Positions 1-16,302 of a stretch of DNA of 22,789 bases are shown here, piece by piece; the stretch's first letter is position 1; every line of letters starts with the position of its first letter. The DNA lies in IMG/VR virus record IMGVR_UViG_3300044642_000360, positions 1 through 22,789 of that record; one strand, written 5' to 3'. A model generated the notes under the pieces. That model did no database searches, had not been told where the DNA came from, and worked only from the letters and a program-made list of their open reading frames with translations. The position numbers and the translations under genes were made by a program. Origin of the DNA: a virus.

Positions 1-2513
1 CCTGCACCTTTTGGTTGGTCTATAAATGATGGTATTACTGATTTTAATTCTTGCTTAAAAACACCACCTGAAAATCTACTTGTAACTTGGGTTAACATGT
101 AAACCATTCTTCCATTTGTTCTTCGTTGGATCTCTGAGTCTTGTGGGTATGTCCAAAATACCACATTATCTTGTGGCTCTAAAATTCCCCAGTATGTATC
201 ATAATCTTTTACTTGTTTAAATCCTATCTCTATGAAAACTTCACCACTATTTGGATTAATTGTAAAATCAGGACCATAAAATAATTTAAACATATTTGCC
301 GCGTCGCCGGCTTGACCAGGCATTAGATAATCCGGATCACCTAAAATAGTTATTGTTGCATTTAATAAATCTGTAGGACTATACAAATAACTTTTAAGAC
401 TATTAACTAATTCATTTGTACCTGGCAATTTGTTTGTAGAATCACCATTTTGCCCTGGTTCTCTACTATTACGTACAGAATCATTGGAATTAGTAGCATT
501 TGGGGCAGAACTAGCTAAAGACCCTATGTTATAATATGCTAAATTAAAAGTTGCATTGAAATCTATAATCTCAGTATTATTACCTGAATAGTAATATTCA
601 TAAATTTTATGAGGGCCGTGATATTTCAAAGTTTTATTTAAGTATAATGTTTGAACATGAGGGATTCTATACTTTATGACATTGTAAGTGATTTCGTGTG
701 CATATTGATTTCTTGCTTTATCATATCCAATGATTTTAACCATGGGTCTTGTGGTGTACCAATATAAATCTAACTGTTCAGACGTAGTTTGCACTGACGA
801 ATCATTTGGTTGTTTCTTTTGAAGTTCTTCTTTTTCAAGTTTGTTTAGTGAATTTTTTATGAATGTACTCTGAGTTATGATAGCTTCAATTGCAGTTAAT
901 ACTGATGAGCCTTCAGCAATCTTAATTATTCTTTGATCTTTTGTAACTGATTGGGTACTTATTTGAGCAGTTCGTTCATTAACTTGACTAGCGTAACTAA
1001 TTCCAGTAGACGATGGAGTATACGTTTTTACATAGTAATCTTGATCAACAATCAATGCATCTGCAATACCCGATTGGTCTTCAAACATAACTTTATATAC
1101 ATCAGCTATTTCTTGCGGAGCTGACGATTTAGGATCTTTTGGTGCTATTGTTAAATCTTTTTGTTGTTTATTAACTTTATCCAGAAGAGAATTTATAGCA
1201 TTACTAACTGTGTCTGACACGATTTCAAATCCAGTTTTAATAACTCCCTTTTCAGATCCATACCCGATATTTTCATTTAGCATTTTTGCCTCAATATCAT
1301 ATACAGTAACCTTACCATCTAATTTAAAAGTAAGTTTACTGAAAATAATAGGGAAGGCTCTTTCAAAATTTGAATTACTATCAGTTTTAGTAGAGCTATT
1401 AGAATTAGGATCAGATAAATTTTTGACTAATTTACCTTTTTCGTCATATCCATAAAATCTTATTACTAATAAAAAAGGACATTGTAATGCTTGTATTTGT
1501 TGTTTAATATCACTTTTTATATTTGTTCGTTCTTGTATTTTTACTTGTGCGTTAACTAGTCTAGATAAAAATGAAACTCCAGTTGGTTCATAAATTTTAA
1601 ATTTAAAACCACTTTGGTTTCCTGCAAATCGTGTAGCTTTAGCATTAGTAAGTGTAATTATTTCAAGATCATCTATGGTAAAATCTAAATCAAAAAATTC
1701 ATTTCTAGCACCATCTAATTTTGAATTAATACCACCACTTTGCATTAAAAGAGATAAATCTTTTGTGAGCCATTTTCCATTAACATTCCAGTTATTATAT
1801 GCTTCCGGTGTTATCCCATACAAACTTATGTTATAAGTATAACTGCTAAAAGCACTTAAAGGATTAGATGGACGTACAGGTGTTAATCTGTCACCTTTAT
1901 CTCCAACTCCTTTTACTTCAACTGCTCGCCCTTTATAAACATCTTCATCATTTTGTGCAATTGGGGTGAGATTACCTTCGTTAGATTCAGCAGTTCCTGT
2001 AACAGCAGGAGTTGCATTATTATCTTGTACTTTATTTTCTGCAGGTTTAGTTTCTTCAGGATTTTCAGTGGGCGTTTTATTTTCTGTAGATTGATTAGGT
2101 TGACCCAATTCTGCTTCTAACTTTGCAATAGATGAATTATTTTTATCGATGGCAGCTTGTTGTGATTGTATGCTCTCTGCCATATTCTTAAGATAAGTAT
2201 TTTTAATTGGGTCAGACAATGTACTAGGAATTTCAGAAGTCTGTAAAAAATAAGTCCTAGAATCAGCAACAGTTATGCTTCCTATTTCTGCAACTGGCCC
2301 TTTTCTTATCTCTAACTCTTTTTGCTTTTTTTCAGTATTACTAAGAGTAGAATCATTTCTTATTGCTGTTATTTGACCTACATAGAGATCAAGTTGAGTA
2401 TTTCCGTTTTTAACAGCTTGTTTAAATGCATCATAATATTGAATAGATAGTTTTTTAGCTTCTTCTGCTTTTGCAACAGAAGCATCAAACTCGGCTTGAT
2501 TTGTAACTGCCAT
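1..2513 (-). CDS. large baseplate/tail hub-like structural protein, C-terminus cut off by window edge
   Basis: The minus-strand frame is open from an ATG at 2513 to the left edge, giving about 837 residues with no stop reached. The first 140 residues are a charged, helical, coiled-coil-like region. A low-complexity linker rich in Pro, Glu, Asn and Thr follows (about 140-210), and then a globular part starting near the motif SSYTYNISLYGI. Towards the visible end there is a segment with ATITILGDPDYLMPG followed by an alternating beta-type stretch, which resembles hub proteins of contractile tails (gp27/gpD type); that resemblance is my inference. The ATG lies one base after the stop of the gp53 gene, so the two are translationally coupled. 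The last visible residues are still in an ordered-looking region, so the true length is unknown. Being a phage structural protein is likely; the exact baseplate position is uncertain. Confidence 0.6.
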   Translation of the reverse strand, partial: MAVTNQAEFDASVAKAEEAKKLSIQYYDAFKQAVKNGNTQLDLYVGQITAIRNDSTLSNTEKKQKELEIRKGPVAEIGSITVADSRTYFLQTSEIPSTLSDPIKNTYLKNMAESIQSQQAAIDKNNSSIAKLEAELGQPNQSTENKTPTENPEETKPAENKVQDNNATPAVTGTAESNEGNLTPIAQNDEDVYKGRAVEVKGVGDKGDRLTPVRPSNPLSAFSSYTYNISLYGITPEAYNNWNVNGKWLTKDLSLLMQSGGINSKLDGARNEFFDLDFTIDDLEIITLTNAKATRFAGNQSGFKFKIYEPTGVSFLSRLVNAQVKIQERTNIKSDIKQQIQALQCPFLLVIRFYGYDEKGKLVKNLSDPNSNSSTKTDSNSNFERAFPIIFSKLTFKLDGKVTVYDIEAKMLNENIGYGSEKGVIKTGFEIVSDTVSNAINSLLDKVNKQQKDLTIAPKDPKSSAPQEIADVYKVMFEDQSGIADALIVDQDYYVKTYTPSSTGISYASQVNERTAQISTQSVTKDQRIIKIAEGSSVLTAIEAIITQSTFIKNSLNKLEKEELQKKQPNDSSVQTTSEQLDLYWYTTRPMVKIIGYDKARNQYAHEITYNVIKYRIPHVQTLYLNKTLKYHGPHKIYEYYYSGNNTEIIDFNATFNLAYYNIGSLASSAPNATNSNDSVRNSREPGQNGDSTNKLPGTNELVNSLKSYLYSPTDLLNATITILGDPDYLMPGQAGDAANMFKLFYGPDFTINPNSGEVFIEIGFKQVKDYDTYWGILEPQDNVVFWTYPQDSEIQRRTNGRMVYMLTQVTSRFSGGVFKQELKSVIPSFIDQPKGA

Positions 2514-2514
2514 T

Positions 2515-2814
2515 TTATAATCCTAACGCTGTTTGTAATGTTGCAGCTTGTGGTATGTAAATATTTTTACCTACTACAAAATCAAACAACGGATCGGCCA
2601 AAGTATTAGGATTTCTTTGTGCAAATACCCACCATAGTTTACTATCATCATACAAATCATACGCTAACAAATCAGGTCTTAAATGATATGTTTGAGTGAT
2701 AGTCCAATATTGATCTAAGGTGTTTACCGGTATAGGTCTATTTGTCATGTTGTCAAGAAATTGTTGTTCGTAAATGCCTGTTAAATAGTAAGGACTTGTT
2801 TGTGGGTAACTCAT
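2515..2814 (-). CDS. 53: baseplate wedge subunit, T4 gp53-like
   Basis: This 99-residue protein has the layout of the T4 gp53 baseplate wedge family. Near residues 50-85 it carries the pattern YDLYDDSKLWWVFAQRN, followed by an aspartate/proline segment and a closing GKNIYIP. That is a LysM-like fold signature common in small baseplate proteins, which join wedges to the hub. I choose the ATG at 2814, which overlaps the stop of the upstream gene (TAATG), rather than an in-frame TTG two codons earlier. It sits between two larger tail genes in a tightly packed minus-strand operon with one-base or overlapping junctions. T4 gp53 is longer (about 196 residues), so this is a short version of the family, as often seen in marine T4-like phages. 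Confidence 0.75.
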   Translation of the reverse strand: MSYPQTSPYYLTGIYEQQFLDNMTNRPIPVNTLDQYWTITQTYHLRPDLLAYDLYDDSKLWWVFAQRNPNTLADPLFDFVVGKNIYIPQAATLQTALGL

Positions 2815-4322
2815 TACCAAAAACCTTTCTTAAATAGTTCGCCAGTAGCATATTTTTCCACTGAAAATACATTTGTTGTATTTTTTCTAGTTACTATTGG
2901 ATATGCTCCTATTTGTAATTGTATCTTAGTAGGTACATAAGTAGCCTTTGAATTAGACAAATATTGAAAATCAGGGTCCTGTGATATATATCCTCCCTTT
3001 TTTAATTTACTTCCACGTAACCGATCTAGTGCAGGAAAATAAGATTTAGTAAATGCTTGTGGTTTTGGAGTATATGCACTTAAATTTACACCAGCAAACT
3101 GTGTTGTACTTCCAGCACGTATATAATCAACATCATTAGGTAAAGTATATGTAAAACTATTAATTAACAATGGGTGATCGCTAAATTGATATTGTCCTAA
3201 ACCAGATAGAAAGCACAAAGGAGGAGGTGTTCCTGCTCTTGGGCTACTATCTTTTCCAAAAAACATTTTAGTTACTGATCTGAAAAAGTGCATTACTGCT
3301 AATAAATAATCTGCTTCGTTTGTGTCTTGTGCTGTAAAATCGCAAGTTATTACAACATCCTCAACACTACTGTTTTTATAAAAATATTGTTTATAATTAT
3401 TATGTACTAAATCTATTGCTTCATAGTTTGCTTTATAACCCATTTGTATTTGAGGTGTGTATGGAAATATGACACCTTTAGTTACTTGTAACGGATATAA
3501 AACATCACCCAACTTGGCAGCATTATAAAGATAATCATAAGCGTCTGTTGCCAATTGTAATCTTACTCTCCAGTCATCTTGTTCTCTTGTATTATCTTGC
3601 GCTTGTTCAACAGCTTCTTTTCTAACTTGATCTACTGATCCAGCAGTGTTGTTTCCAGTAGTTACATTATTACCAGCTGAAGACACTGGATTGTTCGTGA
3701 TTGCTTCACGAATAGCACTATTTGTATTATTGACATTATCTGCGGCAAGCACTTGTGGATCTTGAGGTTCAGGTTTTACTTGAGCCTTTGCGATAGATTG
3801 TTCCGGTGATAATAAAGTATCTTGATTTACACTTGGGTCGGTAGTTGTTATATCAACATTGGTTACTGTTTGAGCATTGACGGTGCTTGCAGTTATAGGT
3901 TCAGTTATTTCTCCGGTTTGTTGTTGAGTAACAGGAGTAAACCCCGAATCAATTTGATCTTGTGTTAATCCTTCTCCGGTCTTTTGTAGGTCAGCCCCAG
4001 GATTTCGTGCTTTTTCAGCTGCCGCTTTTTGTTCTGCCGCAAGTGCTGCTGCCTTTTCTTCTTGCTCTGCCTTTTCAGCAGCCTTGACTTGTACATCTCT
4101 CCATCTTAATGTCCAGTCATCAATTTTTGCCTGTAATGCAGTTTCTTGCGCTTGAAATTTTGTAACTTCTGATTCTATCAGTGCTATATCTTTAGGATTA
4201 GCATTTGGTCGAGCTTTAAGATCCGCAAGATAATTTTCAGCTTCCCACAAATTACTTTGGGTTTTTTTTAACTGTTGACCGAGTTCGTTACCTTCTCTAT
4301 TAAGTTGATAAAGTGTAGCCAT
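2814..4322 (-). CDS. tail-tube/baseplate structural protein (gp48/gp54-like C-terminal domain, tentative)
   Basis: The protein has 502 residues in three parts. Residues 1-115 are an Ala/Glu/Lys/Gln-rich predicted coiled coil. Residues 115-250 are a Thr/Asn/Gln-rich linker of low complexity. Residues 250-502 form a globular domain with ITCDFTAQDTNEADYLLAVM, then HFFRSVTKMFFGKD, an AGTPPPL turn and LPNDVDYIRAG. I recall this C-terminal pattern from baseplate/tail-tube junction proteins of T4-like phages, but the exact gp48 or gp54 identity is inference. A GGGGA Shine-Dalgarno sequence lies six bases before the ATG, inside the end of the small leader ORF. Its stop overlaps the gp53 start. A late-promoter box at 4407-4414 probably drives it. 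Confidence 0.6.
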   Translation of the reverse strand: MATLYQLNREGNELGQQLKKTQSNLWEAENYLADLKARPNANPKDIALIESEVTKFQAQETALQAKIDDWTLRWRDVQVKAAEKAEQEEKAAALAAEQKAAAEKARNPGADLQKTGEGLTQDQIDSGFTPVTQQQTGEITEPITASTVNAQTVTNVDITTTDPSVNQDTLLSPEQSIAKAQVKPEPQDPQVLAADNVNNTNSAIREAITNNPVSSAGNNVTTGNNTAGSVDQVRKEAVEQAQDNTREQDDWRVRLQLATDAYDYLYNAAKLGDVLYPLQVTKGVIFPYTPQIQMGYKANYEAIDLVHNNYKQYFYKNSSVEDVVITCDFTAQDTNEADYLLAVMHFFRSVTKMFFGKDSSPRAGTPPPLCFLSGLGQYQFSDHPLLINSFTYTLPNDVDYIRAGSTTQFAGVNLSAYTPKPQAFTKSYFPALDRLRGSKLKKGGYISQDPDFQYLSNSKATYVPTKIQLQIGAYPIVTRKNTTNVFSVEKYATGELFKKGFW

Positions 4323-4323
4323 G

Positions 4324-4386
4324 TTATATCCCCGAGTCTTCTGTTAGTGTAGATTTTTGTCTGATTTCTGTTTGGTTATTTGCCAT
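4324..4386 (-). CDS. 20-residue leader ORF upstream of the tail operon
   Basis: A small ORF starts with ATG at 4386 and ends with TAA at 4324-4326, encoding MANNQTEIRQKSTLTEDSGI. It has a good Shine-Dalgarno sequence (AGGAA, five bases before the ATG). It begins about 15 bases after the expected start of the transcript from the GATAAATA box at 4407-4414, and its stop lies one base before the next ATG. It is therefore the first translatable unit of the late message, and the ribosome site of the 502-aa gene lies inside its last codons. It could be a true micro-protein, a translational coupler or the relic of a longer N-terminus. No family is recognised. Confidence 0.45.
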   Translation of the reverse strand: MANNQTEIRQKSTLTEDSGI

Positions 4387-4406
4387 GGTTATTCCTATAC
4401 TAAATA

Positions 4407-4414
4407 TATTTATC
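4407..4414 (-). promoter_or_regulatory. late promoter box GATAAATA for the tail operon
   Basis: Read on the minus strand the sequence is GATAAATA, matching the gp55-dependent late promoter consensus of T4-like phages (TATAAATA in T4, NATAAATA in cyanophage relatives). Transcription should begin about six bases downstream, near 4400, leaving a short leader that carries the AGGAA ribosome site of the 20-aa ORF. Confidence 0.65.
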
Positions 4415-4446
4415 GCATAAAAAAACCCCCATTTTTACCAATACTT

Positions 4447-4462
4447 GTTGCATTTCTGCAAC
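4447..4462. repeat. inverted repeat overlapping the -35 element (possible operator)
   Basis: GTTGCA (4447-4452) and TGCAAC (4457-4462) form a perfect 6-bp inverted repeat around a TTTC spacer. It covers the -35 hexamer and part of the promoter spacer upstream of gp55. There is no T-run after it on either strand to suggest a terminator. The placement suits a repressor or activator dyad site, but no binding protein is identified. Confidence 0.4.
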
Positions 4463-4476
4463 TAAAGTGTTATAAT
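4448..4476 (+). promoter_or_regulatory. host sigma70-type promoter for the gp55-gp47-gp46 operon
   Basis: TTGCAT (4448-4453) and TATAAT (4471-4476) are separated by exactly 17 bases, and the -10 is preceded by TGT (4468-4470), an extended -10 element. The expected start is near 4483, giving a leader of about 19 bases with GGAG before the gp55 ATG. This is the best host-type promoter in the window. It fits the need for host polymerase to transcribe the late sigma factor before any late transcription can occur. Confidence 0.75.
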
Positions 4477-4501
4477 TGACCCATCATAACTACGGAGATA
4501 T

Positions 4502-5398
4502 ATGAGTATAGCAGTCAAAAAACCAGTAAATTATCTTAACAACAAAGATATTTTAAAAGAGATTCACACAAGCAAAAATGCATTTTGTACATTCTTACAT
4601 CCAGAGGATCATAGATACGATTTCATCGTTGACATGCCCCAAGAGTCAATAGAAAAGAGTTTAGAATATGCATTAAAGCCTGAAATTATTCAACAAGCAC
4701 GTGAAACAAGAGCTACTAGACTTAGTTTAGAATCAGGAGATAAAAATAGTGTTGATCCATTAAGTATTCCAATTATTGATTTGGTGTTTCGTGTAATGAC
4801 TTGGGATCATATTCCAGTTGCGCCCAAACAACCTAGAAAAGTTGACAAGAAGAAAACAGCCAAAGATATTTTTGAGTTTGAAGATGATTCAGACGAAATT
4901 TTTGCTGACTTAGAAGATCCTACTACTGCAAAGGAAATTGATGACATGGTTCATGTAAAAGTTAATTTTCCACCATTCCAACACTTTCAGTTAGATACCA
5001 ATAATTCATTTAATTGTATCGGCAAAAGTCATTGGAAGGGTACACTGCAAGATGGTGAATTCAGTAAAGATCATGGAAATATTACAAATAAATTAGCACG
5101 TATGTATATTATGATGTGTGAAAAGTATGCTATGAAGTTTAATTGGCGTGGCTACACATACAATGATGAAATGCGTAACTCAGCTATTCTTCAACTCACA
5201 TATGTTGGTTTAAGATTCAATGAAGCCAAAAGTGCAAACCCATTTGCTTATTACACAGCAGCCATTACAAATAGTTTCTGTCGTGTATTGAACACGGAAA
5301 AGCGAAATCAAAATATCCGTGATGACATTTTAGAAATTAATGGGTTGAATCCTAGCTGGACTCGTCAAGGATCTAGTTCAACAGTATACGAGGAATAA
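4502..5398 (+). CDS. 55: late-transcription sigma factor, T4 gp55-like, with long N-terminal extension
   Basis: This 298-residue protein carries a sigma region 2-like segment at residues 198-280, with NWRGYTYNDEMRNSAILQL, then RFNEAKSANPFAYYTAAITN and EKRNQNIRDD. This is the hallmark of gp55 from marine T4-like phages. gp55 replaces the host sigma factor and recruits RNA polymerase to NATAAATA late promoters. T4 gp55 is 185 residues. Here about 110 extra residues lie mainly in the N-terminal half, including a conserved-looking segment at 6-45 (HPEDHRYDFIVD) and an acidic stretch at 120-150. The start is set by GGAG four bases upstream of the ATG. The C-terminus (STVYEE) is not an obvious copy of the hydrophobic sliding-clamp-binding tail of T4 gp55, so clamp coupling is unclear. 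It is the first gene of its operon, under a sigma70-type promoter. Confidence 0.88.
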   Translation: MSIAVKKPVNYLNNKDILKEIHTSKNAFCTFLHPEDHRYDFIVDMPQESIEKSLEYALKPEIIQQARETRATRLSLESGDKNSVDPLSIPIIDLVFRVMTWDHIPVAPKQPRKVDKKKTAKDIFEFEDDSDEIFADLEDPTTAKEIDDMVHVKVNFPPFQHFQLDTNNSFNCIGKSHWKGTLQDGEFSKDHGNITNKLARMYIMMCEKYAMKFNWRGYTYNDEMRNSAILQLTYVGLRFNEAKSANPFAYYTAAITNSFCRVLNTEKRNQNIRDDILEINGLNPSWTRQGSSSTVYEE

Positions 5399-5403
5399 AC
5401 TTA

Positions 5404-6036
5404 GTGATTGATATCAAATATTCAATAGACACTGCTGGATATGATGTTAATTCATTGGGTTATCGTTCGGTTGAGTTTAACCAAGTTGATTGGGCTAACA
5501 GTTATATTATTCAAGGGTGTAGCCAAGTATTCGGAGAAAGTACTATGGATAACAACAAAATTGTATCCTTTTACTTATCCGAATTATTAAATGCTCCAGT
5601 AATAAATTTAGGTGTTCCTGGGGCGGGAATGGATATTCAATATATTAACACACTTGATATATTAGAACAGAATATAAAACCTAAAGGAGTTTTCATTGTT
5701 TATCCTAATTTAGAACGATATACACTTTACTCAAATGACATTCCATCACACAAAGGTGGATGGTCAGAAGAAGAATTTTTAAAATGGATATCCGATGGCA
5801 ACAGTAGAAAACATAATTTAAATTTAGTTAGAGGTTATCGTTTATTATGGAAACTATATAACATACCTTTATACGAATGGTCACATCTTCCAGAAAACAG
5901 TGATATTTGCAAAACTGATTTTGAATGGTATAGAGCTTCATACATGTCAGATAGGGCGCCCGACGGACATCACTGGGGACAAAAAACAATTCAGGGTGTG
6001 GCAGAAAAGTTATTTGAACTTACTACGGCAACCTAA
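5404..6036 (+). CDS. SGNH/GDSL hydrolase-like protein
   Basis: This 210-residue protein has the spaced motifs of the SGNH hydrolase fold. Block I is GCSQVFGES with a candidate nucleophile Ser40, block II is NLGVPGAG with Gly70, a possible Asn102 follows beta-strand IVYPN, and the C-terminal DGHHWG supplies candidate Asp187 and His190 (DxxH). Such enzymes cleave esters, often acetyl groups on sugars. No substrate can be read from the sequence. Translation probably starts at GTG, five bases after the gp55 stop, with AGGA in the last gp55 codons as ribosome site. There is no signal peptide or membrane segment. Lying between gp55 and gp47 in the early operon, it is not part of the T4 core set and looks like inserted cargo. 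Confidence 0.6.
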   Translation: MIDIKYSIDTAGYDVNSLGYRSVEFNQVDWANSYIIQGCSQVFGESTMDNNKIVSFYLSELLNAPVINLGVPGAGMDIQYINTLDILEQNIKPKGVFIVYPNLERYTLYSNDIPSHKGGWSEEEFLKWISDGNSRKHNLNLVRGYRLLWKLYNIPLYEWSHLPENSDICKTDFEWYRASYMSDRAPDGHHWGQKTIQGVAEKLFELTTAT

Positions 6037-6075
6037 TAACTTGAAATACCAAACAATAAATGTTATTATTGATAG

Positions 6076-7089
6076 ATGATTAATCTTTTTAAAAAAGCCG
6101 CAGTATTTACAGACATTCATTTTGGTTTAAAGAGCAACAGTTTACAACACAACCAAGATTGTATTAATTTCGTAGACTGGTTTATTGAGAAAGCAAAACA
6201 AGAGGGTTGTGAAACTTGTTTGTTCTTAGGTGATTATAATCATCACCGCGCTAGTATTAATATTCATACATTACAATTTGGATTACAAGCACTTGAGAAA
6301 TTAAGTGCCGCATTTGATCGGGTATTTTTCATACCCGGTAACCACGACTTATATTATCGTGATAGACGAGATATTCACAGTGTTGAATGGGCTAAACATT
6401 TACCTAACATTACAATTGTTAACGATTGGTTCAATGAGGGCGATGTAGTTATTGCTCCATGGCTTGTGCAAGATGATTATAAAAAGATTCAAAAACTAAA
6501 GGGCAAGTATATGTTCGGACATTTTGAATTACCTAACTTTTTTATGAATGCTATGGTAGAGATGCCCGATCACGGGGAGATTAGTGCTGACCACTTTAAT
6601 GGATTTGAAATGACATTCAGCGGTCACTTTCATAAACGACAAGCAAAGAAAAACATATGGTATATCGGTAATGCTTTCCCACATAACTATGCTGATGCAG
6701 GTGATGATGCTAGAGGCATGATGATATTAGAATGGGGAAGTGATCCTGTATTCCATAGTTGGCCAAATCAACCATTATTCAGAGTTTACAAACTCAGTGA
6801 CATATTAGAAAATCCTAAGGGCTTGCTATTAACTGACAGTCATGTTAGAGTTCATCTTGACATTGATATCAGTTATGAAGAAGCAAACTTTATTCGGGAA
6901 ACACTTATTCCAGAACATAAACTACGTGAAATGGCATTGATACCTATGAAGGTTGAACAAATAGAACAAACTGCTAACGGTGGCTTAAAGTTTGAAAGTG
7001 TTGACCAAATCGTCATTGACCAAATTAACAGTATTGAGTCAAATACGTTTGACAAAAAGATTTTACTAGAGATTTACAACAACTTATGA
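6076..7089 (+). CDS. 47: recombination endonuclease subunit gp47 (Mre11/SbcD-like)
   Basis: The 337-residue protein matches T4 gp47 in length (339) and shows all metallophosphoesterase motifs in order: DIH at 13-15, GDYNHHR from 52, GNHD at 88-91, GHF at 148-150 and SGHFHKR from 182. These bind two metal ions and form the nuclease site. With gp46 it forms the Mre11-Rad50-type complex that resects DNA ends for recombination-dependent replication and host DNA breakdown. The gene follows the SGNH gene after 39 bases holding only a weak inverted repeat, and it lacks a strong Shine-Dalgarno sequence. Its stop overlaps the gp46 start (ATGA), consistent with coupled synthesis of the two subunits. 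Confidence 0.92.
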   Translation: MINLFKKAAVFTDIHFGLKSNSLQHNQDCINFVDWFIEKAKQEGCETCLFLGDYNHHRASINIHTLQFGLQALEKLSAAFDRVFFIPGNHDLYYRDRRDIHSVEWAKHLPNITIVNDWFNEGDVVIAPWLVQDDYKKIQKLKGKYMFGHFELPNFFMNAMVEMPDHGEISADHFNGFEMTFSGHFHKRQAKKNIWYIGNAFPHNYADAGDDARGMMILEWGSDPVFHSWPNQPLFRVYKLSDILENPKGLLLTDSHVRVHLDIDISYEEANFIRETLIPEHKLREMALIPMKVEQIEQTANGGLKFESVDQIVIDQINSIESNTFDKKILLEIYNNL

Positions 7090-9158
7090 TTTTATTGAAG
7101 AATATTACCCTACGTAATTTTTTGAGTATCGGACAAGTAACGCAAGCAGTTGACTTTAATCGACAAGACTTAACACTTATTCTGGGTGAGAACTTAGACT
7201 TAGGTGGTGATGGTGCTCGTAATGGTACAGGTAAAACGAGTCTTATTCAAGGCTTAAGTTATGCATTATTTGGTGTACCTATTAACTCAATCAGAAAAGA
7301 TAATTTAGTTAATCGTACAAATGCCAAAGGCATGTTAGTTACACTTGAATTTAGTGTAGGTGGTATTGATTATAAGATTGAGCGTGGTCGTAAGCCAAAC
7401 TTATTAAGATTTTATGTAAACAGTGATTTACAAAAAGGCACAGATGATGCACAGGGTGAGAACAAAGAAACACAAGCACAAATTGAAAAAGTATTGTGCA
7501 TGTCCAGTAGCATGTTCCGCCATATCGTAGCATTGAATACATATTCAGAACCGTTTTTAGCATTAAAGAACAATGAACAACGTGAAATTATTGAGCAGTT
7601 GTTGGGTATTACTTTGTTATCAGAAAAAGCAGAGGTTATCAAAACTCTACTTAAAAATACAAAAGACGATATACAAGCAGAAGAATTTAAAGTCAAAGCC
7701 ATTGAAGAAGCCAATAAACGAGTCAAAGAACAAATTGAAAGTTTTAAGCGTAGACAAGGTCTTTGGCAAAAGAAACATGAAAGTGATTTGGCTTATCTAG
7801 CATCTCAATATGAAGACCTTATAAAAATTGACATTGGAAAAGAATTACTAGCGCACAAAGAATTAGTTATTTGGAACGAAAAGAAAAAACAACAAGATAC
7901 ATACACTGCTTTATCGGCTAGACAAACTGCTTGGAAACAAAAACAAGATAAAGATTTGTATGACTTAGAAGATAGTGTTCTTAAGTTGAGCCACATTGAT
8001 ATTGTTCAAGAAATTTTAGCACATCGTGCTTTAGCCGAATATAATATAAAATCAAAAGAACTTATTGACCGAGACAAAGAAATTACTAGGTTAACAAAAG
8101 ATTTAGACAAAGAGAAAAAATTAATAACTAAACTGACTACAGAGGTTGCTACATTACAAAATCATACATGTTATGCGTGTGGACAAGATTTCCATGATGA
8201 ACAACATGCTACTGTGTTGGCTGATAAAGAACAATTATTAATTGAATCTACAGTTCATGCAAATATGTTAGAACGACAATTAAAAGAACAAACTGATAAA
8301 GTTATTGAGTTAGGTGATAAGCCCAAAACGCATTACAAAACAGAAGCTGAGGCAATTCGTCATGGCAGTGATGCAGAAAACATTCGTACAAAGATACTTG
8401 AAAAAGAAAAAGAGTCTGACCCCTATGCTGAACAACTCAAAGAGTTAACAGTAGTTACATTAGGTCCGATGCCAGTTACACATTATGACACTGAAACACA
8501 AGCAATTGAACATCGTAGTAAAGTGTCTGGGCTGTTACAACAGATTGAAACAAAGGCTGCTGAATCTGATCCGTATGCAGAACAAGTGACAGAAATGGAA
8601 TCAAACGCATTGCAAGCAATTGACTTTGAAGCAATTAACAAACTAACTAAGACTATGGAACATCAGAAGTTCTTGTTAGATATTTTGACTAGTAAAGATA
8701 GTTTTGTTCGTAAGAAGATTATTGACCAGAACTTAAGTTACTTGAACGGTAGATTGACACATTACTTAGATAAGATTGGGTTACCTCATCAAGTTATTTT
8801 TAAAAATGATTTAGAAGTTGAAATTACAGAGTTGGGCCGCGAACTTGACTTTGACAATTTAAGTCGTGGTGAACGTAATAGATTGATTCTTGGATTAAGT
8901 TTTGCTTTCCGTGATGTATGGGAGAACTTATATTCACCTATTAATACGTTATTTATTGATGAATTAATTGATTCAGGATTAGACACAATGGGTGTTGAGA
9001 ATGCTATTGCTATTCTTAAAGATATGTCACGTAAGCGACAGAAATCTATTTGGCTTGTTAGTCATAGAGAAGAATTAGCCGGTCGTGTTCCTAGCGTATT
9101 AAAAGTGGTAAAAGAAAATGGTTTTACTACATACAATACAGCAGTTGATATAGAATAA
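7086..9158 (+). CDS. 46: recombination endonuclease subunit gp46 (Rad50/SbcC-like ATPase)
   Basis: This SMC-like ATPase has 690 residues (T4 gp46 is 560). It shows a Walker A site at 43-52 (ARNGTGKTS, Lys50), a long coiled coil, a zinc hook CYAC at 362-365, an ABC signature LSRGE at 592-596, a Walker B LFIDE at 622-626 and an H-loop VSH ending at His660. The ATPase heads drive opening of the gp47 nuclease site, and the hook joins two complexes. The extra length lies in the coiled coil: each arm carries a tandem duplication, at residues 223-326 before the hook and 413-504 after it. The gene overlaps gp47 by four bases. Confidence 0.92.
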   Translation: MILLKNITLRNFLSIGQVTQAVDFNRQDLTLILGENLDLGGDGARNGTGKTSLIQGLSYALFGVPINSIRKDNLVNRTNAKGMLVTLEFSVGGIDYKIERGRKPNLLRFYVNSDLQKGTDDAQGENKETQAQIEKVLCMSSSMFRHIVALNTYSEPFLALKNNEQREIIEQLLGITLLSEKAEVIKTLLKNTKDDIQAEEFKVKAIEEANKRVKEQIESFKRRQGLWQKKHESDLAYLASQYEDLIKIDIGKELLAHKELVIWNEKKKQQDTYTALSARQTAWKQKQDKDLYDLEDSVLKLSHIDIVQEILAHRALAEYNIKSKELIDRDKEITRLTKDLDKEKKLITKLTTEVATLQNHTCYACGQDFHDEQHATVLADKEQLLIESTVHANMLERQLKEQTDKVIELGDKPKTHYKTEAEAIRHGSDAENIRTKILEKEKESDPYAEQLKELTVVTLGPMPVTHYDTETQAIEHRSKVSGLLQQIETKAAESDPYAEQVTEMESNALQAIDFEAINKLTKTMEHQKFLLDILTSKDSFVRKKIIDQNLSYLNGRLTHYLDKIGLPHQVIFKNDLEVEITELGRELDFDNLSRGERNRLILGLSFAFRDVWENLYSPINTLFIDELIDSGLDTMGVENAIAILKDMSRKRQKSIWLVSHREELAGRVPSVLKVVKENGFTTYNTAVDIE
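7752..8063 (+). repeat. tandem protein repeat in the ascending coiled-coil arm of gp46
   Basis: Residues 223-270 and 279-326 of gp46 align at a constant offset of 56 residues. RQGLW pairs with RQTAW, and ELLAHKEL with EILAHRAL. Fifty-six residues equal exactly eight heptads, so the duplication keeps the coiled-coil register. DNA similarity is low enough to suggest an old duplication. Confidence 0.7.
8322..8597 (+). repeat. tandem protein repeat in the descending coiled-coil arm of gp46
   Basis: Residues 413-454 and 463-504 of gp46 align at a constant offset of 50 residues. PKTHYKTE pairs with PVTHYDTE, and ESDPYAEQ is identical in both copies although its codons differ. The pair lies after the zinc hook and roughly opposite the repeat pair in the ascending arm. 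Confidence 0.75.
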
Positions 9159-9190
9159 TTCACAATGGTAAATTACAGATAAGTAACAGT

Positions 9191-9748
9191 ATGTCAAGTC
9201 CACAAAAGAATAAAGGTTCAGGTTTTGAACGGGAAATTGCAAAATTTCTATCAGAATTGTACGGTGAAAGTTTCATTCGTGCTCCTGGATCCGGTGCATA
9301 TGTGGGTGGCAAGAATCAAGCCAGAACTCAATTCTTACATGAGGGACAGATTCGTTCTTTTAAGGGCGATATTGTTCCGGGACAGAGTTTCAGCAAAATG
9401 AATGCAGAGTGTAAGTTCTATGCGGACTTTCCTTTTCACCTAATACTTACAGGTGAATGCAAACAACTTGATTCGTGGATTGGACAACTGTTAGATGTAG
9501 AAGATTCAAATGATTTAAATATTCTTTTTATGAAGTTTAATCGTAAGGGTCGTTATGTTGCTGTACAACCTAAATTTACATGGATTATGGATAATTACAT
9601 ATTTTATGGAAGTAAGAAGTATGGTGATTGGTATCTAACAGAGTTCGAAACCTTCTTCAAACAAAACAAAGACTTAGTAAAATTATACTCAGGTTTATCA
9701 ACAGACACCACGTCAAAACCAAAAATAATAACTTTAGAAACAACATAA
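9191..9748 (+). CDS. PD-(D/E)XK nuclease, Holliday-junction-resolvase-like
   Basis: The 185-residue protein opens with KGSGFEREIAKFL (residues 8-20), followed by RAPGSGAY near 30, KGD with Asp60 and ECK with Glu73 and Lys75. The order Glu13 or Glu15, Asp60, Glu73-x-Lys75 is the active-site pattern of PD-(D/E)XK nucleases and resembles archaeal-type Holliday junction resolvases and phage relatives. A role in cutting branched DNA made by gp46/gp47-driven recombination is inferred from fold and neighbourhood. It ends the operon 32 bases after gp46. The start has only a weak ribosome site. T4 uses an unrelated resolvase (gp49), so this may be a functional substitute. Confidence 0.65.
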   Translation: MSSPQKNKGSGFEREIAKFLSELYGESFIRAPGSGAYVGGKNQARTQFLHEGQIRSFKGDIVPGQSFSKMNAECKFYADFPFHLILTGECKQLDSWIGQLLDVEDSNDLNILFMKFNRKGRYVAVQPKFTWIMDNYIFYGSKKYGDWYLTEFETFFKQNKDLVKLYSGLSTDTTSKPKIITLETT

Positions 9749-10074
9749 TATAAAAATTCGTTGGCTGAGTTGTCAGTCCTCCTTGAGATTGTACAGATTG
9801 TGCTGTGCCGTTAGATTCTGGAGTATGTATGTTAGCAATAACATAGGAACACCGAGTAGGCAATCTTTCTAGGGAACCTACAATGAGTACATATCTAATT
9901 CTATCTTGCGGGTATGTAACATGCGTTGTCGAGGCGTCAGTTGAAATAAACTTGATAGTCTCACTACAGTCCCATAACAATTTACAGGACAACCGGTGAC
10001 AGTTAATATCATAAAAACGGTGATTAACTGGGGAATAGATAGCTAAGGATGACGGGCATGGCAAATGACCTTAA

Positions 10075-10105
10075 CCATTGGTAGTGCAAATTTGCACTAC
10101 CATGG
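10075..10105. repeat. perfect 22-bp palindrome with flanking complementary arms
   Basis: GGTAGTGCAAA (10080-10090) is followed directly, with no spacer, by its exact reverse complement (10091-10101). CCAT (10075-10078) and ATGG (10102-10105) extend the dyad past a single unpaired T. Neither strand has a T-run after it, so it does not look like a standard terminator. A protein-binding dyad is the simplest reading. Confidence 0.7.
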
Positions 10106-10176
10106 CTTCTAAGCGGCAATATATTCCTTAATAAACAAAATTAAAAATCTAGATAAGAATAAAAACAATACAATCC

Positions 10177-10218
10177 AGAACGAGCAATAGCGAGTTCTGA
10201 GATGAACGAAGTTCATCT
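10177..10218 (-). terminator. two adjacent hairpins downstream of the hub operon, possible atypical terminator
   Basis: Going leftwards from the end of the 75-aa gene, the minus-strand transcript meets an 8-bp hairpin (10200-10207 with 10211-10218, three-base loop GAA on the plus strand). Next comes a hairpin of five plus two pairs (10177-10185 with 10190-10198) with a tandem mismatch, and then a T-rich stretch some bases further on. The T-run does not directly follow the stem, so termination is only a possibility. Confidence 0.3.
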
Positions 10219-10272
10219 ATTAAATGAAAATAAGGTAATAACCCTAATTGTATGCAAATGAATAATAACGGA

Positions 10273-10500
10273 TTAGAAGAATGGCATTCTACTAGTTTTT
10301 GTAGTTTCTAGATTTTCTTCAATAATTTTATTAATGGTTTTTCTTTCATCGGTACTCATGTTAAGTATATCAACATAACTAACTCCGCCCCTCATAAACC
10401 AAGACATTTTTAAACATCCTGCTTTAATATCTTTTACTTCCTCCTCTAAATTATCCAACCACTTCTTAACTGCTTCGGAGTTAAGTATAAGAAGTTTCAT
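10273..10500 (-). CDS. small hub-associated protein, possibly gp51-like
   Basis: This 75-residue protein overlaps the gp26 gene by four bases (ATGA), so it is coupled to it. Its second half, with MSWFMRGGVSYVDILNMS, DERKTINKIIEENLETTK and a terminal PFF, matches a pattern I recall directly after gp26 in marine T4-like phages, sometimes labelled baseplate hub assembly (gp51). In T4, gp51 helps assemble the hub. That name is carried over by position and should be treated as tentative. There is no signal peptide or membrane segment. Confidence 0.55.
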   Translation of the reverse strand: MKLLILNSEAVKKWLDNLEEEVKDIKAGCLKMSWFMRGGVSYVDILNMSTDERKTINKIIEENLETTKTSRMPFF

Positions 10501-11321
10501 CCGAAAAAATCGGATACGTTCACATTGAAAGGTTGTTCGTATTCATGGCTACAATTGATGCATTTGAATTTTAATGGTTTTGTATCTGTTGATTTCTTTA
10601 ATTCTAATGAGATATCTTTAATCTTTTCAAATGTTTTTACATCAACATTTTCTAAAAATTCTTTAATAAAATTCTTATCCAATACTATACCATTCGGTGA
10701 AGAAATATATTCTATTGTTTCAACAATGATATCCATTGTAACTTGGTTCATTTTTCTTAAAACTTCAGTTGATTTAGCATTTCTCTCATCACCGTCCGGC
10801 ATGTCTTGTATAATGCGTAAAGCACGTTGAATTTCAAATTGGATGACACTGGTTTCATTAATTTGTTTATAATTTAATGGACAAAATTTCAATGAAAGTT
10901 GGTCTAGTTTTAGTGGGGTATTATACTCCCCTGGTTTATATTCATTTAATAATTGTGTTAAATTAATATCGTACTTATTAGGTTCTTCGCATGATGGACA
11001 TACAGTATCAAATTCCATAGTAGATCCATTAGTAGCCATTTTGATTGCTAACAAAATAGGGTCTAGATCAATTTGTAAGATTTGCCATGGATCTTTTATT
11101 GATGGTACACAACTTTTGATGATTTCTATTACTGCTACCCCGTTAAATAATGCGTCCGGTGTACGTGCGGTAATCTCATCAATTGCAGTCATTGGAAATA
11201 TAGCTAACTCACCGTTTTCAGGGAATTCTATGCTATTTTCAGGATAACCTTCCCCTTGACTAGGTAATTTAAGATATAAAGCTGGACGACGGAAATATTG
11301 TTGTAGTGGATTAGTTGACAT
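10497..11321 (-). CDS. 26: baseplate hub subunit, T4 gp26-like
   Basis: The 274-residue protein shows the T4 baseplate family pattern: FRRPALYLKLPSQG at 10-23, MTAIDEITARTPDALFNG from 44, and CVPSIKDPWQI from 71. It has two CxxC pairs, C108/C111 (CPSC) and C254/C257 (CINC), which probably bind zinc together. In T4, gp26 (208 residues) is a hub assembly component. A strong Shine-Dalgarno sequence (TAGGAG) lies just before the ATG, and a minus-strand late box AATAAATA is about 40 bases upstream. It is divergent from the tape-measure gene. Confidence 0.8.
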   Translation of the reverse strand: MSTNPLQQYFRRPALYLKLPSQGEGYPENSIEFPENGELAIFPMTAIDEITARTPDALFNGVAVIEIIKSCVPSIKDPWQILQIDLDPILLAIKMATNGSTMEFDTVCPSCEEPNKYDINLTQLLNEYKPGEYNTPLKLDQLSLKFCPLNYKQINETSVIQFEIQRALRIIQDMPDGDERNAKSTEVLRKMNQVTMDIIVETIEYISSPNGIVLDKNFIKEFLENVDVKTFEKIKDISLELKKSTDTKPLKFKCINCSHEYEQPFNVNVSDFFG

Positions 11322-11342
11322 TAAAACTCCTAAAATTGAATG

Positions 11343-11350
11343 ACTAAATA
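11343..11350 (+). promoter_or_regulatory. weak late-type box ACTAAATA upstream of the tape-measure gene
   Basis: ACTAAATA differs from NATAAATA at one position and lies 28 bases before the tape-measure ATG, with a predicted start near 11357. It faces the gp26 late box at 11361-11368, so the two transcripts would start within a few bases of each other and overlap. No other plus-strand promoter is seen in the 57-bp gap. Confidence 0.3.
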
Positions 11351-11360
11351 CATTGTAAAT

Positions 11361-11368
11361 TATTTATT
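11361..11368 (-). promoter_or_regulatory. late promoter box AATAAATA for gp26
   Basis: The minus strand reads AATAAATA, a match to NATAAATA, about 40 bases before the gp26 ATG. The predicted start near 11354 leaves a leader holding the TAGGAG ribosome site. Confidence 0.55.
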
Positions 11369-11378
11369 TCCCTAAACT

Positions 11379-13904
11379 ATGGCTGATTCTTTTACCCCTG
11401 AACAAATAGAGAACATGAACAAGTTCTTTGAGTTAATAAACTCGTCCGTTGCACCTCTAACCGAAGCGCAAAAAGAAGAATTAGCATTAGCTAAAGCTGC
11501 CAAAGAAGCAGGAGATAGATTAAAGAAATTTGGTGAGCAATTAGGTAAAAGTGGTATAGACTTTACTAAAGCACTTATCAGCGGTACCGATGGATTTGGT
11601 AAATTTGGAGATTCAGTTACAAGTGCCACTGGTGCTATAGGTGACTTTGCCGGAACTTTTGGTAAGTTAGGATTTGTAGTAGGCGGAGTAATAAAAGTAT
11701 TCGGGGATTTTGTAGATAGTGCGCTTAAACAAAATGATAATTTATTAAAAGGTTTCCGTGATTTAAGTGAATTAGGTAGTATAACTCAAGATGGTATAAA
11801 AGGTTTACAGGCTGACTTAAGTAGTATTGGTTTGATAAGTTCTGAGTATGAAAAATTAACAAGTTTTTTAAAACCAATCTCACAAGATTTAGTAAAATTT
11901 GGCGGCAGTGTAACATCTGGAAAAAATGCTTTATTAGATGTTGTTAGTAATTTTGTAGGTGAAGGTAATCAACTAGAATTATCGCTTACCCGTATTGGAT
12001 ATACTAGCGAAACTATACGTGAAGGTGTTGCAGACTATATCAGTATGCAAACTAGATTGGGTAAAGCTCAAGGAAAAACAACAGAACAGTTAACAAAAGA
12101 AAGTCAAAAATATCTTGTTGAGATGAGAGGGTTACAAGAACTTACTGGAATGACTCGTGACGAGCAACAAAAACTCAGAGATGCACAAATGGCAGATGCA
12201 CGATATAGTCTACATTTGTCTACAATGAACAAAGATGAGGCAGCTAATCTTCAACAATATATGGTAGCTTATCAGGCAGCGTTTGGAGCAGAAGCTGCCG
12301 CAGGATTAAAAGATAGAATTGTAAATTTTGGTAGTATCACAACTGAAGCAGGCGCAGCCAGTTACCAACGTGGTAATAAAGAATATGAATTAGCAATGCG
12401 GGCTCAAAAAGAAGGAATGGCATTCTTTCAAGAAGGACTTGTTACTACTGCAAAAAATACTATGGCTAGTCTTGGGCCATTATCAACTACATTTAGATTA
12501 TCAGAAGGACAACTTAAACAAATGGGTTTTAATGCTGAAATGGTTAATGCCGCACTTGCATTAACGAATACAGATCAAAAAGAATTTGACAAAAGAATGA
12601 AAGCAATAATAGAGACAATGGTTAAGCAAGAAGACCAAACAGAAACAAATTTAAAAAGTGAACAACAAAATAGAGCAAAAAATTTAATGTATGATGCATT
12701 ATTAGCAGAAGCAGCTAAGGGATTGGTATCAGTATTTGGTTTATTAAACACTGTCGTAACTGCTCTTGCTAAAATGATGGCAAACTTTATTGATTTTATG
12801 TCAAGTAAAGGTATAATACCAGGACTTTCTCCTACTAATTTAAGTAAATTTTTTGAAGAATCCGCTTCTTCAAGTAGACCAGATAAATCTGGATTATCCC
12901 AACCAGAGCAAAATGTAAGTAAAGCAGCCGGAGAGTCATTGGCTCCGTCGATGGCAGGTCGAAATTCAGAGGATGTGTTAAGTAAATTAAACTTTGGTGG
13001 CAAACGTGCTGAAAGAACAGGCGGAGGTGAAGCTAGCCCGGCTCTTTTGGCAATGGCAGAAAAAATTCAAGATGAGTATCCTGACGCTATCTTTACTGCA
13101 TTAAATGATCGATATCACCAAGACCGTAGAGACAAGAATTCAAAAAGTAAACATCTTGTAGGAAAGGCACTTGATTTTAGTTTAGGATACGATCCAACTA
13201 GTGAGGAAAGTGACCGTATTGCTAAACTATTAAGAATGACAGGTGCTAGTTACGTTAAAAATGAGTATAAAGAAAGATCAGGTGGTTGGACAGGTGGACA
13301 CTTTCACGTTGAAGTTGCTAGACAAGGTGGATTGTTTAGTGGTAAAGATACTGGATATCCAGTTATGCTTCATGGTAAAAATGAAAGTGTGTGGCCTGAA
13401 AAAGAGCTAACAACTTTTATGAAAGATGTTCAAAAAACTAGTTTAAAAAAATACAAAGACGAATTAATGGATCAAATATCGCCAAGTGGTACAACTACTG
13501 ATATATGGTCTAAATTGTCGGATGCATTTAATACATTTAGTAGCAAAAATAAAATTAAATCAAATAATTTGACTAATGAAAATTTTTCTGGTGAAGTCGG
13601 TAAACATGGTGGATTGTTTAGTGAAAAAGATGCCGGTTATCCGGTTATGCTTCATGGGAAAAATGAAAATGTAAAATTTGAAAAAGATTTAATCAATGTA
13701 ATGAAAGATGTTCAGAAAACTAGTTTGGAACAATACAAGCAAGAACTAATGACTCAGACAGTACCCGGTGGTATAACGAGTGATACTGGATCTAAATTAA
13801 CAGATGCGTTTAATATGTTTAGCAATAAATTGGATTCCTTAATAAGTGAGCAACGTAATAACAATAGTATTCAAGCTGAAATATTGACATACAGCCGTGC
13901 GTAA
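11379..13904 (+). CDS. tail tape-measure-like protein with embedded M15-type peptidase domain
   Basis: The 841-residue protein is mostly helical. Hydrophobic helices at about 84-115 and 437-474 and a C-terminal motif GYPVMLHGKNES are typical of tail tape-measure proteins. Residues about 545-650 hold a zinc peptidase of the D-Ala-D-Ala carboxypeptidase/endopeptidase (M15) type: SKHLVGKALDF gives the SxHxxGxAxD signature (His592, Asp599), and GGHFHVE gives His641 and His643. Such a domain would cut cell-wall peptides during DNA entry. After it comes a 94-residue module present twice (648-741 and 742-835). No Shine-Dalgarno sequence precedes the ATG. It is divergent from gp26 and followed by the portal gene. 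Confidence 0.75.
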   Translation: MADSFTPEQIENMNKFFELINSSVAPLTEAQKEELALAKAAKEAGDRLKKFGEQLGKSGIDFTKALISGTDGFGKFGDSVTSATGAIGDFAGTFGKLGFVVGGVIKVFGDFVDSALKQNDNLLKGFRDLSELGSITQDGIKGLQADLSSIGLISSEYEKLTSFLKPISQDLVKFGGSVTSGKNALLDVVSNFVGEGNQLELSLTRIGYTSETIREGVADYISMQTRLGKAQGKTTEQLTKESQKYLVEMRGLQELTGMTRDEQQKLRDAQMADARYSLHLSTMNKDEAANLQQYMVAYQAAFGAEAAAGLKDRIVNFGSITTEAGAASYQRGNKEYELAMRAQKEGMAFFQEGLVTTAKNTMASLGPLSTTFRLSEGQLKQMGFNAEMVNAALALTNTDQKEFDKRMKAIIETMVKQEDQTETNLKSEQQNRAKNLMYDALLAEAAKGLVSVFGLLNTVVTALAKMMANFIDFMSSKGIIPGLSPTNLSKFFEESASSSRPDKSGLSQPEQNVSKAAGESLAPSMAGRNSEDVLSKLNFGGKRAERTGGGEASPALLAMAEKIQDEYPDAIFTALNDRYHQDRRDKNSKSKHLVGKALDFSLGYDPTSEESDRIAKLLRMTGASYVKNEYKERSGGWTGGHFHVEVARQGGLFSGKDTGYPVMLHGKNESVWPEKELTTFMKDVQKTSLKKYKDELMDQISPSGTTTDIWSKLSDAFNTFSSKNKIKSNNLTNENFSGEVGKHGGLFSEKDAGYPVMLHGKNENVKFEKDLINVMKDVQKTSLEQYKQELMTQTVPGGITSDTGSKLTDAFNMFSNKLDSLISEQRNNNSIQAEILTYSRA
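13320..13883 (+). repeat. tandem duplication of a 94-codon module at the 3' end of the tape-measure gene
   Basis: Residues 648-741 and 742-835 align without gaps at an offset of 282 bases. GGLFSGKDTGYPVMLHGKNE pairs with GGLFSEKDAGYPVMLHGKNE, MKDVQKTSL is identical, and SKLSDAF pairs with SKLTDAF. DNA identity is still high in the first half of the unit, which suggests a fairly recent duplication. Confidence 0.85.
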
Positions 13905-13906
13905 GT

Positions 13907-13914
13907 GATAAATA
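13907..13914 (+). promoter_or_regulatory. late promoter box GATAAATA directly before the portal gene
   Basis: GATAAATA ends seven bases before the portal ATG. Late transcripts normally start about six bases after the box, so the message would begin at or next to the start codon. No Shine-Dalgarno sequence is present. Confidence 0.5.
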
Positions 13915-13921
13915 TCTAACT

Positions 13922-15706
13922 ATGTCATATAAAAAGCGTTTTTCCAATCTTACTGGTCAATTAAGTCCTATCTCCGGGTATAATAATAATACCGGTGCAT
14001 GGAACGGACAAGCCGGTTTAAACACACAACCGACCGGTGGATATAATAATAACGAATTTGGTTACAAGAACTATCAAAGTCGTTTACCAGAAGTTTACAC
14101 TGGTCATCCAAATCGTATTGAACGTTATAATCAATATGAAATGATGGATGTAGATGCTGAAATTAATGCATGTTTAGATATTATTGCTGAGTTCAGTACA
14201 CAGAAAAATGACCAAAATAACACACCATTTGAAATTGAATTTCGTGACGAACCAACACCCCATGAAGTTGAATTGATTAAAAAGCAATTACAACAGTGGT
14301 GTAAGTTGAATGAATTAGACAGTAGAACATTTAAAATCTTCCGTAATACTATCAAGTATGGGGATCAAGTTTTTGTACGTGACCCTGAAAACTTCAAACT
14401 ATATTGGGTTGACATGACCAAAGTTAGCAAAGTTATTGTTAACGAAAGTGAAGGTAAATTACCGGAACAATATGTTATCAAAGACATTAATCCTAACTTA
14501 CAAAATTTAAGTATTGCTGAAAAAACAACTACAGACTTTGGAATGAACACTGCTACTGGCTTTGGTGGTACAGGCGGCGGTTTTGCTGGCGCCGGATATA
14601 CAGCACCAAGTACAAATGCAGGGACAACAGGTAGTCGTTTTAATTTAGGATTAAATGAAGCCGCAATTGATGCGAAACATGTTGTACATTTAAGTTTGAC
14701 AGAAGGTTTAGACCGTTATTGGCCTTTTGGACAAAGTATCTTAGAAAACGTTTTTAAAGTATACAAACAAAAAGAATTATTAGAAGATGCGATTCTTATC
14801 TATCGTATCAGTCGTGCTCCAGAACGCAGAGTTTTTAAAATTGACGTTGGTAACATGCCAAGTCATATGGCTATGGCATTTATTGACAGAGTTAAGAATG
14901 AGATTCACCAAAGACGTATTCCAAGTAGTCAAGGTGGACAATCAGTGTTAGATGCTACATACAATCCATTAAGTATTAACGAAGATTACTTCTTTCCTGT
15001 TACAGCAGATGGACGTGGTAGTGATGTCACTATGCTACAAGGTGGACAGAACTTGGGTGAGATTGATGACTTGCGTTATTTTAATAACAGACTAGCACGT
15101 GGATTGCGTGTTCCGAGTAGCTATTTACCAACAGGTCCAGAAGATAGTCCAACACCAATGAGTGACGGTCGTGTTGGTACTGCTATGATTCAAGAGTTTC
15201 GTTTCAATCAATATTGTGAACGTTTACAAAAGTATATTAGTCAAAAGCTAAATGATGAATTTAAGTTGTTCATGCGTTGGAGAGGATTTAATATTGACTC
15301 AAGTCTATTTGATATTAAATTCAACGCACCGCAAAACTTTGCAGCCTATCGTCAAAGTGAACTAGACACCGCACGTGTAACAGTATTTCAAGCAATGGAA
15401 CAATTTCCATATATTAGCAAGCGATTTGCAATGCAACGTTTCTTAGGCTTAACTGAAGAAGAAATTGAAGAAAACAGTCGTTTATGGTTTGAAGAACGTG
15501 AAGAACCAGAAGATAGTGAAGCACAAGGTGGTGACTTACGTAGTATTGGTATTAGTCAGGGTGACATGGAAACTGATAGTGAAGCTATAGATAATATGTC
15601 AGATGAAAATGCCGGAATGAATCAAGAACCAGCTGAGTTAGGTGCAGCCGTTGCACCGCCTCAAGGTACACCACCGGGCGCTTCAGCACCGCCTCCCCCA
15701 ATGTAA
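13922..15706 (+). CDS. 20: portal vertex protein gp20
   Basis: The 594-residue protein (T4 gp20 is 524) has the family core: YNQYEMMDVDAEINACLDII near 69-88, RNTIKYGDQVFVRD near 139-152, a stem/clip region with LYRYSR-like IYRISRAPERRVF near 292, and RLARGLRVPSSYLP near 390. Twelve copies form the portal through which DNA is packaged and where prohead assembly starts. Oddities are a Gly/Asn-rich N-terminus with a twice-used GYNNN motif, a Gly/Ala/Thr-rich insert at about 205-240, and a proline-rich tail. No ribosome site is seen. The stop touches the start codon of the methyltransferase. Confidence 0.92.
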   Translation: MSYKKRFSNLTGQLSPISGYNNNTGAWNGQAGLNTQPTGGYNNNEFGYKNYQSRLPEVYTGHPNRIERYNQYEMMDVDAEINACLDIIAEFSTQKNDQNNTPFEIEFRDEPTPHEVELIKKQLQQWCKLNELDSRTFKIFRNTIKYGDQVFVRDPENFKLYWVDMTKVSKVIVNESEGKLPEQYVIKDINPNLQNLSIAEKTTTDFGMNTATGFGGTGGGFAGAGYTAPSTNAGTTGSRFNLGLNEAAIDAKHVVHLSLTEGLDRYWPFGQSILENVFKVYKQKELLEDAILIYRISRAPERRVFKIDVGNMPSHMAMAFIDRVKNEIHQRRIPSSQGGQSVLDATYNPLSINEDYFFPVTADGRGSDVTMLQGGQNLGEIDDLRYFNNRLARGLRVPSSYLPTGPEDSPTPMSDGRVGTAMIQEFRFNQYCERLQKYISQKLNDEFKLFMRWRGFNIDSSLFDIKFNAPQNFAAYRQSELDTARVTVFQAMEQFPYISKRFAMQRFLGLTEEEIEENSRLWFEEREEPEDSEAQGGDLRSIGISQGDMETDSEAIDNMSDENAGMNQEPAELGAAVAPPQGTPPGASAPPPPM

Positions 15707-16297: not shown

Positions 16298-16302
16298 GTT
16301 AT

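Follow-up and report, generated by a model that had tools for sequence, protein, structure and literature searches.

Paired repeat modules in the two coiled-coil arms of a phage Rad50-like protein, gp46, and the apparent exchange of long and short rods by recombination

The coiled-coil rod of the phage gp46 protein described here very probably consists of two modules of matched arm length, the outcome of an old doubling, after which long rod interiors were traded for short ones, and the reverse, between phages by recombination. Among its relatives, the two rod lengths are interspersed throughout the tree of gp46 heads but not throughout that of the rods, and pairs of opposite class with heads 85–90% identical differ wholly at their tips; both observations are new here, and no report of a paired arm module or of rod exchange in gp46 was found in the open-licence literature. 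The window is the whole 22,789-nt stretch of the IMG/VR record IMGVR_UViG_3300044642_000360, and all coordinates given below are positions in it, on the plus strand unless marked otherwise.

The gp46 gene (7086–9158; 690 aa, long-rod form) encodes a Rad50/SbcC-like ATPase, as indicated by its match to phrog_77 (E=2.4e-102), by Pfam AAA_23 over residues 7–218 and by Foldseek, where Rad50 heads (TMt up to 0.76) and SMC heads were the top matches to the predicted model; SMC_N extends over residues 4–679, but below its cut-off. The ABC-type ATPase head is split between both ends of the protein, with an N-terminal half at residues 1–174 (7086–7607; predicted secondary structure and AAA_23) and a C-terminal half at residues 540–690 (8703–9155; alignments and predicted secondary structure). 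Between the two coiled-coil arms lies a CxxC motif, residues 362–365 (8169–8180), whose cysteines C362 and C365 are invariant in two alignments (A1 and A2) and are flanked on either side by long predicted helices. Directly upstream is the gene for its partner gp47, the Mre11/SbcD-like nuclease subunit (6076–7089; phrog_100, E=1.3e-64; Metallophos PF00149). Judged from sequence and gene order, gp46 of the window is a phage Rad50 with a putative antiparallel rod, its N- and C-arms closed by a putative zinc hook.

Each arm carries an internal repeat, and the residues and offsets reported in the preliminary description were recovered exactly. In the N-arm, a head-proximal unit 1 at residues 223–270 (7752–7895), which aligns with the single unit of shorter relatives, recurs at offset 56 as a distal unit 2 at residues 279–326 (7920–8063); in the C-arm, a distal unit 1 at residues 413–454 (8322–8447) recurs at offset 50 as a head-proximal unit 2 at residues 463–504 (8472–8597). 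Both distal units are missing in the short forms. In a gapless self-alignment of the whole protein, offset 50 scores 128–129 and offset 56 scores 92, the next best score being 40, and none of 300 composition or 300 heptad-preserving shuffles reached the observed score in either arm (maxima 53 and 57 for the N-arm, 49 and 48 for the C-arm). Furthermore, the non-heptad motifs W...IDI..EL..H and P.THY.TE.EA..H...DPY.EQ are kept at equal unit positions in many relatives. Core identity between copies amounts to 19/48 aa in the N-arm and 21/42 aa in the C-arm, from which both duplications are taken to be old rather than recent; at the DNA level, matches between the copies survive only as short stretches. 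A paired duplication, one in each arm of a Rad50-type rod, is supported, and it accounts for most of the approximately 130 residues by which this protein had been said to exceed T4 gp46 (arms of 192/179 vs 129/134, i.e. +108 of 130). Compared with a 584-aa short sister form, the paired units account for all 106 extra residues.

The relatives against which these repeats were compared came mainly from IMG/VR, which supplies hundreds of close ones, while named relatives were sought by tblastn against phage records; the latter are PA5oct/Paride-type jumbo phages (42%, 584 aa), Phosso and Atu_ph07 (591–593 aa) and Asteriusvirus-like phages (713–718 aa). Two main gp46 sizes occur among the relatives, one with the hook at about residue 306 and a total of about 585 aa, the other with the hook at about 362 and a total of about 690 aa. 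With arm lengths measured from EQLLGIT to the hook (N) and from the hook to RKKIIDQN (C), the short class has an N-arm of 136 and a C-arm of 129–136 residues (193 proteins), the long class an N-arm of 192 and a C-arm of 178–189 (94 proteins), and a few relatives are longer still (N-arm 200–206 with C-arm 183–195). In round terms, the two main classes have arms of about 136/132 and 192/179 residues. The short forms are without one unit in each arm, and forms without only one of the two repeats are essentially absent. Over 296 unique proteins, with the relative L078 left out, N-arm and C-arm lengths correlate with r = 0.99. Arms are also matched in distant gp46 families, where they measure 129/134 in T4, 133/139 in S-RIM2, 153/157 in EF24C, 217/219 in SKML-39 and 222/227 in Vibrio F86, the largest difference among those compared being that of Aswh_1 (232/249, about 17 residues); in our sequence set, Enterococcus phage EF24C, Aeromonas phage Aswh_1 and Salmonella phage SKML-39 are L331, L332 and L335, respectively. 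From family to family the gp46 arms differ greatly in length, yet the two change together; matching is the rule, which is what an antiparallel hairpin would lead one to expect.

The sole mismatched rod in about 300 proteins is that of L078 (arms 192/85), which may not be genuine. Its gp46 (1451–3238 of a 6-kb contig) has an intact, long N-arm and a C-arm shortened by an in-frame loss of 97 residues; on either side of the junction the sequence shares about 90% identity with L069, and the protein would be either an assembly fault or a genuine loss confined to one arm. A second apparent one-arm form, L391 (172/134), was discarded, as the marker had matched an earlier EQLLGIS and the true N-arm is about 136 residues. 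In L363 (gp46 from position 51 of its contig), the arms are of intermediate length (176/151); the extension consists of unrelated sequence in place of the module, a second route to roughly matched lengthening. Other offset pairs are also found among long forms: L201 and L205 carry unit offsets of 64 (N) and 63 (C), both exceeding those of the window form, Vibrio 2.275.O has 60/54, and a further pair is 56/57. Rods of the L201/L205 type may stem from an independent paired duplication; more broadly, the longer forms (L201, 64/63; Vibrio 2.275.O, 60/54) may reflect independent duplications or an older shared one. The Vibrio 2.275.O protein, used as a query against viral contigs, returned no match.

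Structure prediction, together with coevolution, suggests that the repeat copies lie at facing positions. In the AlphaFold2 model of the window protein (42-sequence alignment, mean pLDDT 80, pTM 0.54), each N-arm unit contains a single helix break, located at residues 246–249, at the IDI motif, of unit 1 (7821–7832) and at residues 302–305 of unit 2 (7989–8000), the two breaks lying 56 residues apart. The C-arm contains two non-helical Pro/Tyr loops about 50 residues apart, at residues 404–419 in unit 1 (8295–8342) and 453–469 in unit 2 (8442–8492), with short helices around the DPY motif. The model of the short form L057 (pLDDT 84) has one N-arm break, at 247–249, and one C-arm loop, at 354–366, the counterparts of the unit 1 break and the unit 2 loop. 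Each module would accordingly pair a once-broken length of N-arm helix with a C-arm segment comprising helix, short helix and extended loop. Two details of the preliminary description do not survive this picture. The remark that offset 56 equals exactly eight heptads has no structural meaning when the helix is predicted to break once per unit, and the six-residue difference between the offsets is no sign of imperfect pairing, because residue for residue an extended chain reaches further than a helix does, so that with a non-helical loop in each C-arm unit 50 C-arm residues can match 56 N-arm residues.

Coevolution agrees with this register in the short forms. Among 172 gapless short sequences, an N-arm position d residues before the hook couples with a C-arm position about d+4 after it, and 23 of the 60 top couplings fall in this antiparallel band, with 7.9 expected (p = 9e-7); the same analysis on long forms alone (45 sequences) gave noise. 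From the short-form register and the matching positions of the predicted breaks, we infer that in the long form N1 would face C2 in the proximal module and N2 would face C1 in the distal one.

The histories of heads and rods differ. On a head-only tree of 110 representatives, 22 changes between long and short are needed, at least seven of them forced by well-supported branches, and the head nearest to that of the window (95% aa identity) is that of L053, whose rod is short. For a matched set of 97 sequences, the changes needed are 21 on the head tree, 5–6 on a proximal-rod tree built from the N1 and C2 columns found in both classes, and 9 on the hook region, the rod trees resting on few columns. 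Paucity of columns could be dismissed as the reason for the cleaner rod tree, since head alignments subsampled to 125 or 78 columns still required 17–21 class changes; the conflict between head and rod trees thus goes beyond effects of resolution. Constraining the short forms to one clade cost 728 lnL on the head tree (p-AU 1e-4, rejected) and 63 lnL on the proximal-rod tree (p-AU 0.019). Because short rods do not form one clade even on the latter, some class changes arose within a rod lineage or inside the module. In trees of the units, the distal units belong mostly to one lineage in both arms, and short units show 12 and 17 changes vs 3–6 for long units. The gp47 tree requires 16 rod-class changes and is mixed nearly as much as the head tree, which removes gp47 as a candidate driver of rod class.

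Identity along the gene points in the same direction. Where heads are 85–90% identical, the hook regions, or tips, of long/short pairs are only 53% identical at the DNA level, close to the 51% of distant long/short pairs, whereas those of long/long and short/short pairs are 80% and 84% identical, respectively. Between the window protein and L053 the identity profile drops at the rod base, while between L017 and L105 and between L014 and L106 it drops only past the proximal module; since identity falls at different points in different pairs, a class switch is read as the replacement of a gene interior with more than one set of breakpoints. Eight large records (186–347 kb) comprising both classes each contain one gp46, which argues that long and short proteins are alternatives and not paralogues within one genome. 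On the evidence of tree incongruence and identity profiles, most changes in rod length appear to come about by recombination in which a contiguous arm–hook–arm segment is replaced, and with it both arms at once. The idea of co-ordinated arm growth put forward earlier therefore holds as regards matched lengths, but not as repeated matched duplication, given that the distal copies are largely one lineage and that switches are segment replacements.

The explanation that we favour runs as follows. Short-rod relatives possess one two-stranded module and the window protein two. In each module, about 56 residues of the N-arm, broken once at the IDI motif, would lie opposite about 50 residues of the C-arm that include the Pro-Tyr loop. 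An extra module would lengthen the rod by about 8 nm (56 x 0.148 nm), so that reach would rise from about 19 to 27 nm in the long form. As arm, hook and arm are one contiguous stretch of DNA, a single double crossover, whether placed within the conserved heads or in the head-proximal module, could exchange a long tip for a short one, with both arms changing at once and matched length being inherited. The original doubling would be a single event for most long rods, most simply the grafting of a hook-plus-module tip onto the module of another allele, although one step or two are both conceivable. Unequal exchange within one arm must presumably occur as well, its products being removed because unmatched arms cannot pair. 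As neither heads nor gp47 sort by rod class, the additional module may do nothing more than extend reach. It is possible, though we advance this only tentatively, that rod length is a balanced, exchangeable two-state trait, in which long and short rods coexist and pass as cassettes from one phage to another with a nearly identical head, reach being under changing selection, for example from genome packing, the host nucleoid or competing nucleases; if so, the rod would be a modular spacer and not a finely tuned lever.

Other readings of the same data differ mainly in the order and the mode of events. Rods with two modules might be ancestral, with short forms produced by paired deletion of a module and then spread by recombination, a reading that bears solely on the polarity of the initial event and leaves room for exchange afterwards. 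Rods in the distant Asteriusvirus-like group (121Q, CBB, Vibrio 2.275.O) are likewise long and partly repeated, so the duplication could predate the split; yet the near-root ingroup lineages (Paride/PA5oct, Phosso, Atu_ph07, L232, L239 and L240) are all short, short units form a scattered background in the unit trees, and the Asterius-group distal units do not consistently lie nearer to the long distal units than to others. We consider this polarity unlikely, if deserving of attention. Less credit still, though some, is due to independent compensatory evolution, in which a unit gained or lost in one arm is soon followed by a selected, matching change in the other. Arm lengths matched everywhere, N and C units so unlike that in sequence terms they represent separate duplications, and the long forms with other offset pairs would all suit it, but one-arm intermediates are missing apart from L078, the distal units are mostly of one lineage in both arms, and switches between close relatives replace the tip and do not add or remove a unit in an otherwise similar rod.

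Two further possibilities would make the pattern an artefact. Chimeric metagenome assembly could in principle mix long and short rods over the heads, as every ingroup sequence is a metagenome contig and the 97-aa loss in L078 could be a misjoin. This is very improbable when the same combinations of long and short recur in separate samples (short L103, L105 and L106; long L014, L017, L018 and L019), both classes lie on contigs of more than 200 kb, and heads 85–89% identical offer an assembler few long exact matches to misjoin. That the repeats are nothing but the heptad pattern or low complexity of any coiled coil was rejected and has next to no probability: weak self-alignment is indeed common in coiled coils, but heptad-preserving shuffles never attain such scores, and the conserved motifs are not heptadic.

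Exchange after an old doubling can be set beside several known systems. T4 gp46/gp47 shares with the window the phrog_77 family, the gp47–gp46 order, the ABC head, the zinc hook and matched arms, but the T4 arms are of about short-form length and display no obvious copy of the module by eye, whereas the window protein has two modules. The hairpin of cellular Rad50/SbcC likewise combines a two-arm rod with CxxC closure; by comparison, the rod of the window protein is much shorter, is predicted to be interrupted once per module and belongs to two exchangeable length classes. Asteriusvirus/Mimasvirus gp46 (121Q, CBB) and that of Vibrio phage 2.275.O resemble the window form in being long with both arms extended (203–206/183–191), but differ in offsets (60/54 in 2.275.O) and in their diverged units.

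In SMC proteins, arm lengths fall into discrete modes with few intermediates, and the step between modes, about 91–100 aa, is linked to the superhelical period. An engineered SMC given a foreign hinge together with about 100 aa of hinge-proximal coil was functional; the authors suggest that multimodal arm lengths may extend to Rad50 (Burmann et al., 2017; PMC5344682). That hinge-plus-coil graft is a bench counterpart of the tip exchange proposed for gp46. In gp46, by contrast, the arms differ by 56 (N) and 50 (C) residues, not by a superhelical step of about 91–100 aa; the increment corresponds to a sequence module, and rods appear to be exchanged in nature among closely related proteins. A study of the yeast Mre11 complex noted that shortened Rad50 coils are defective and asked why the coils are so long (PMC11661359). 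A general question is why Rad50 and SMC coils are as long as they are. Another is how the length of an antiparallel two-strand rod can evolve with no unpaired stage on the way, and to this a plausible answer is that both arms lie on one DNA stretch and are swapped together. The gp46 family may be seen as a natural experiment, with the same heads, two rod lengths one two-stranded module apart and many exchanges, and its matched long/short pairs are ready for testing the role of rod length in gp46–gp47 nuclease activity or recombination.

Around gp46, positions 2814–21294 of the window carry replication and head genes in T4-like order: a virion protein (minus strand), a late sigma factor, a 210-aa unknown, gp47, gp46, a RusA-like resolvase, a baseplate protein (minus strand), an 841-aa ORF, portal, a SAM-methyltransferase-like protein, head protease, phrog_10922 and the major head protein. 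The 841-aa ORF (11379–13904) had no match in PHROG and Pfam searches; its residues 538–646 are 37–38% identical to endolysin/lysozyme-domain proteins of EL-like and RisingSun-like phages, and it adjoins the T4-type baseplate protein and the portal gene, so that it possibly encodes a baseplate or tail lysozyme.
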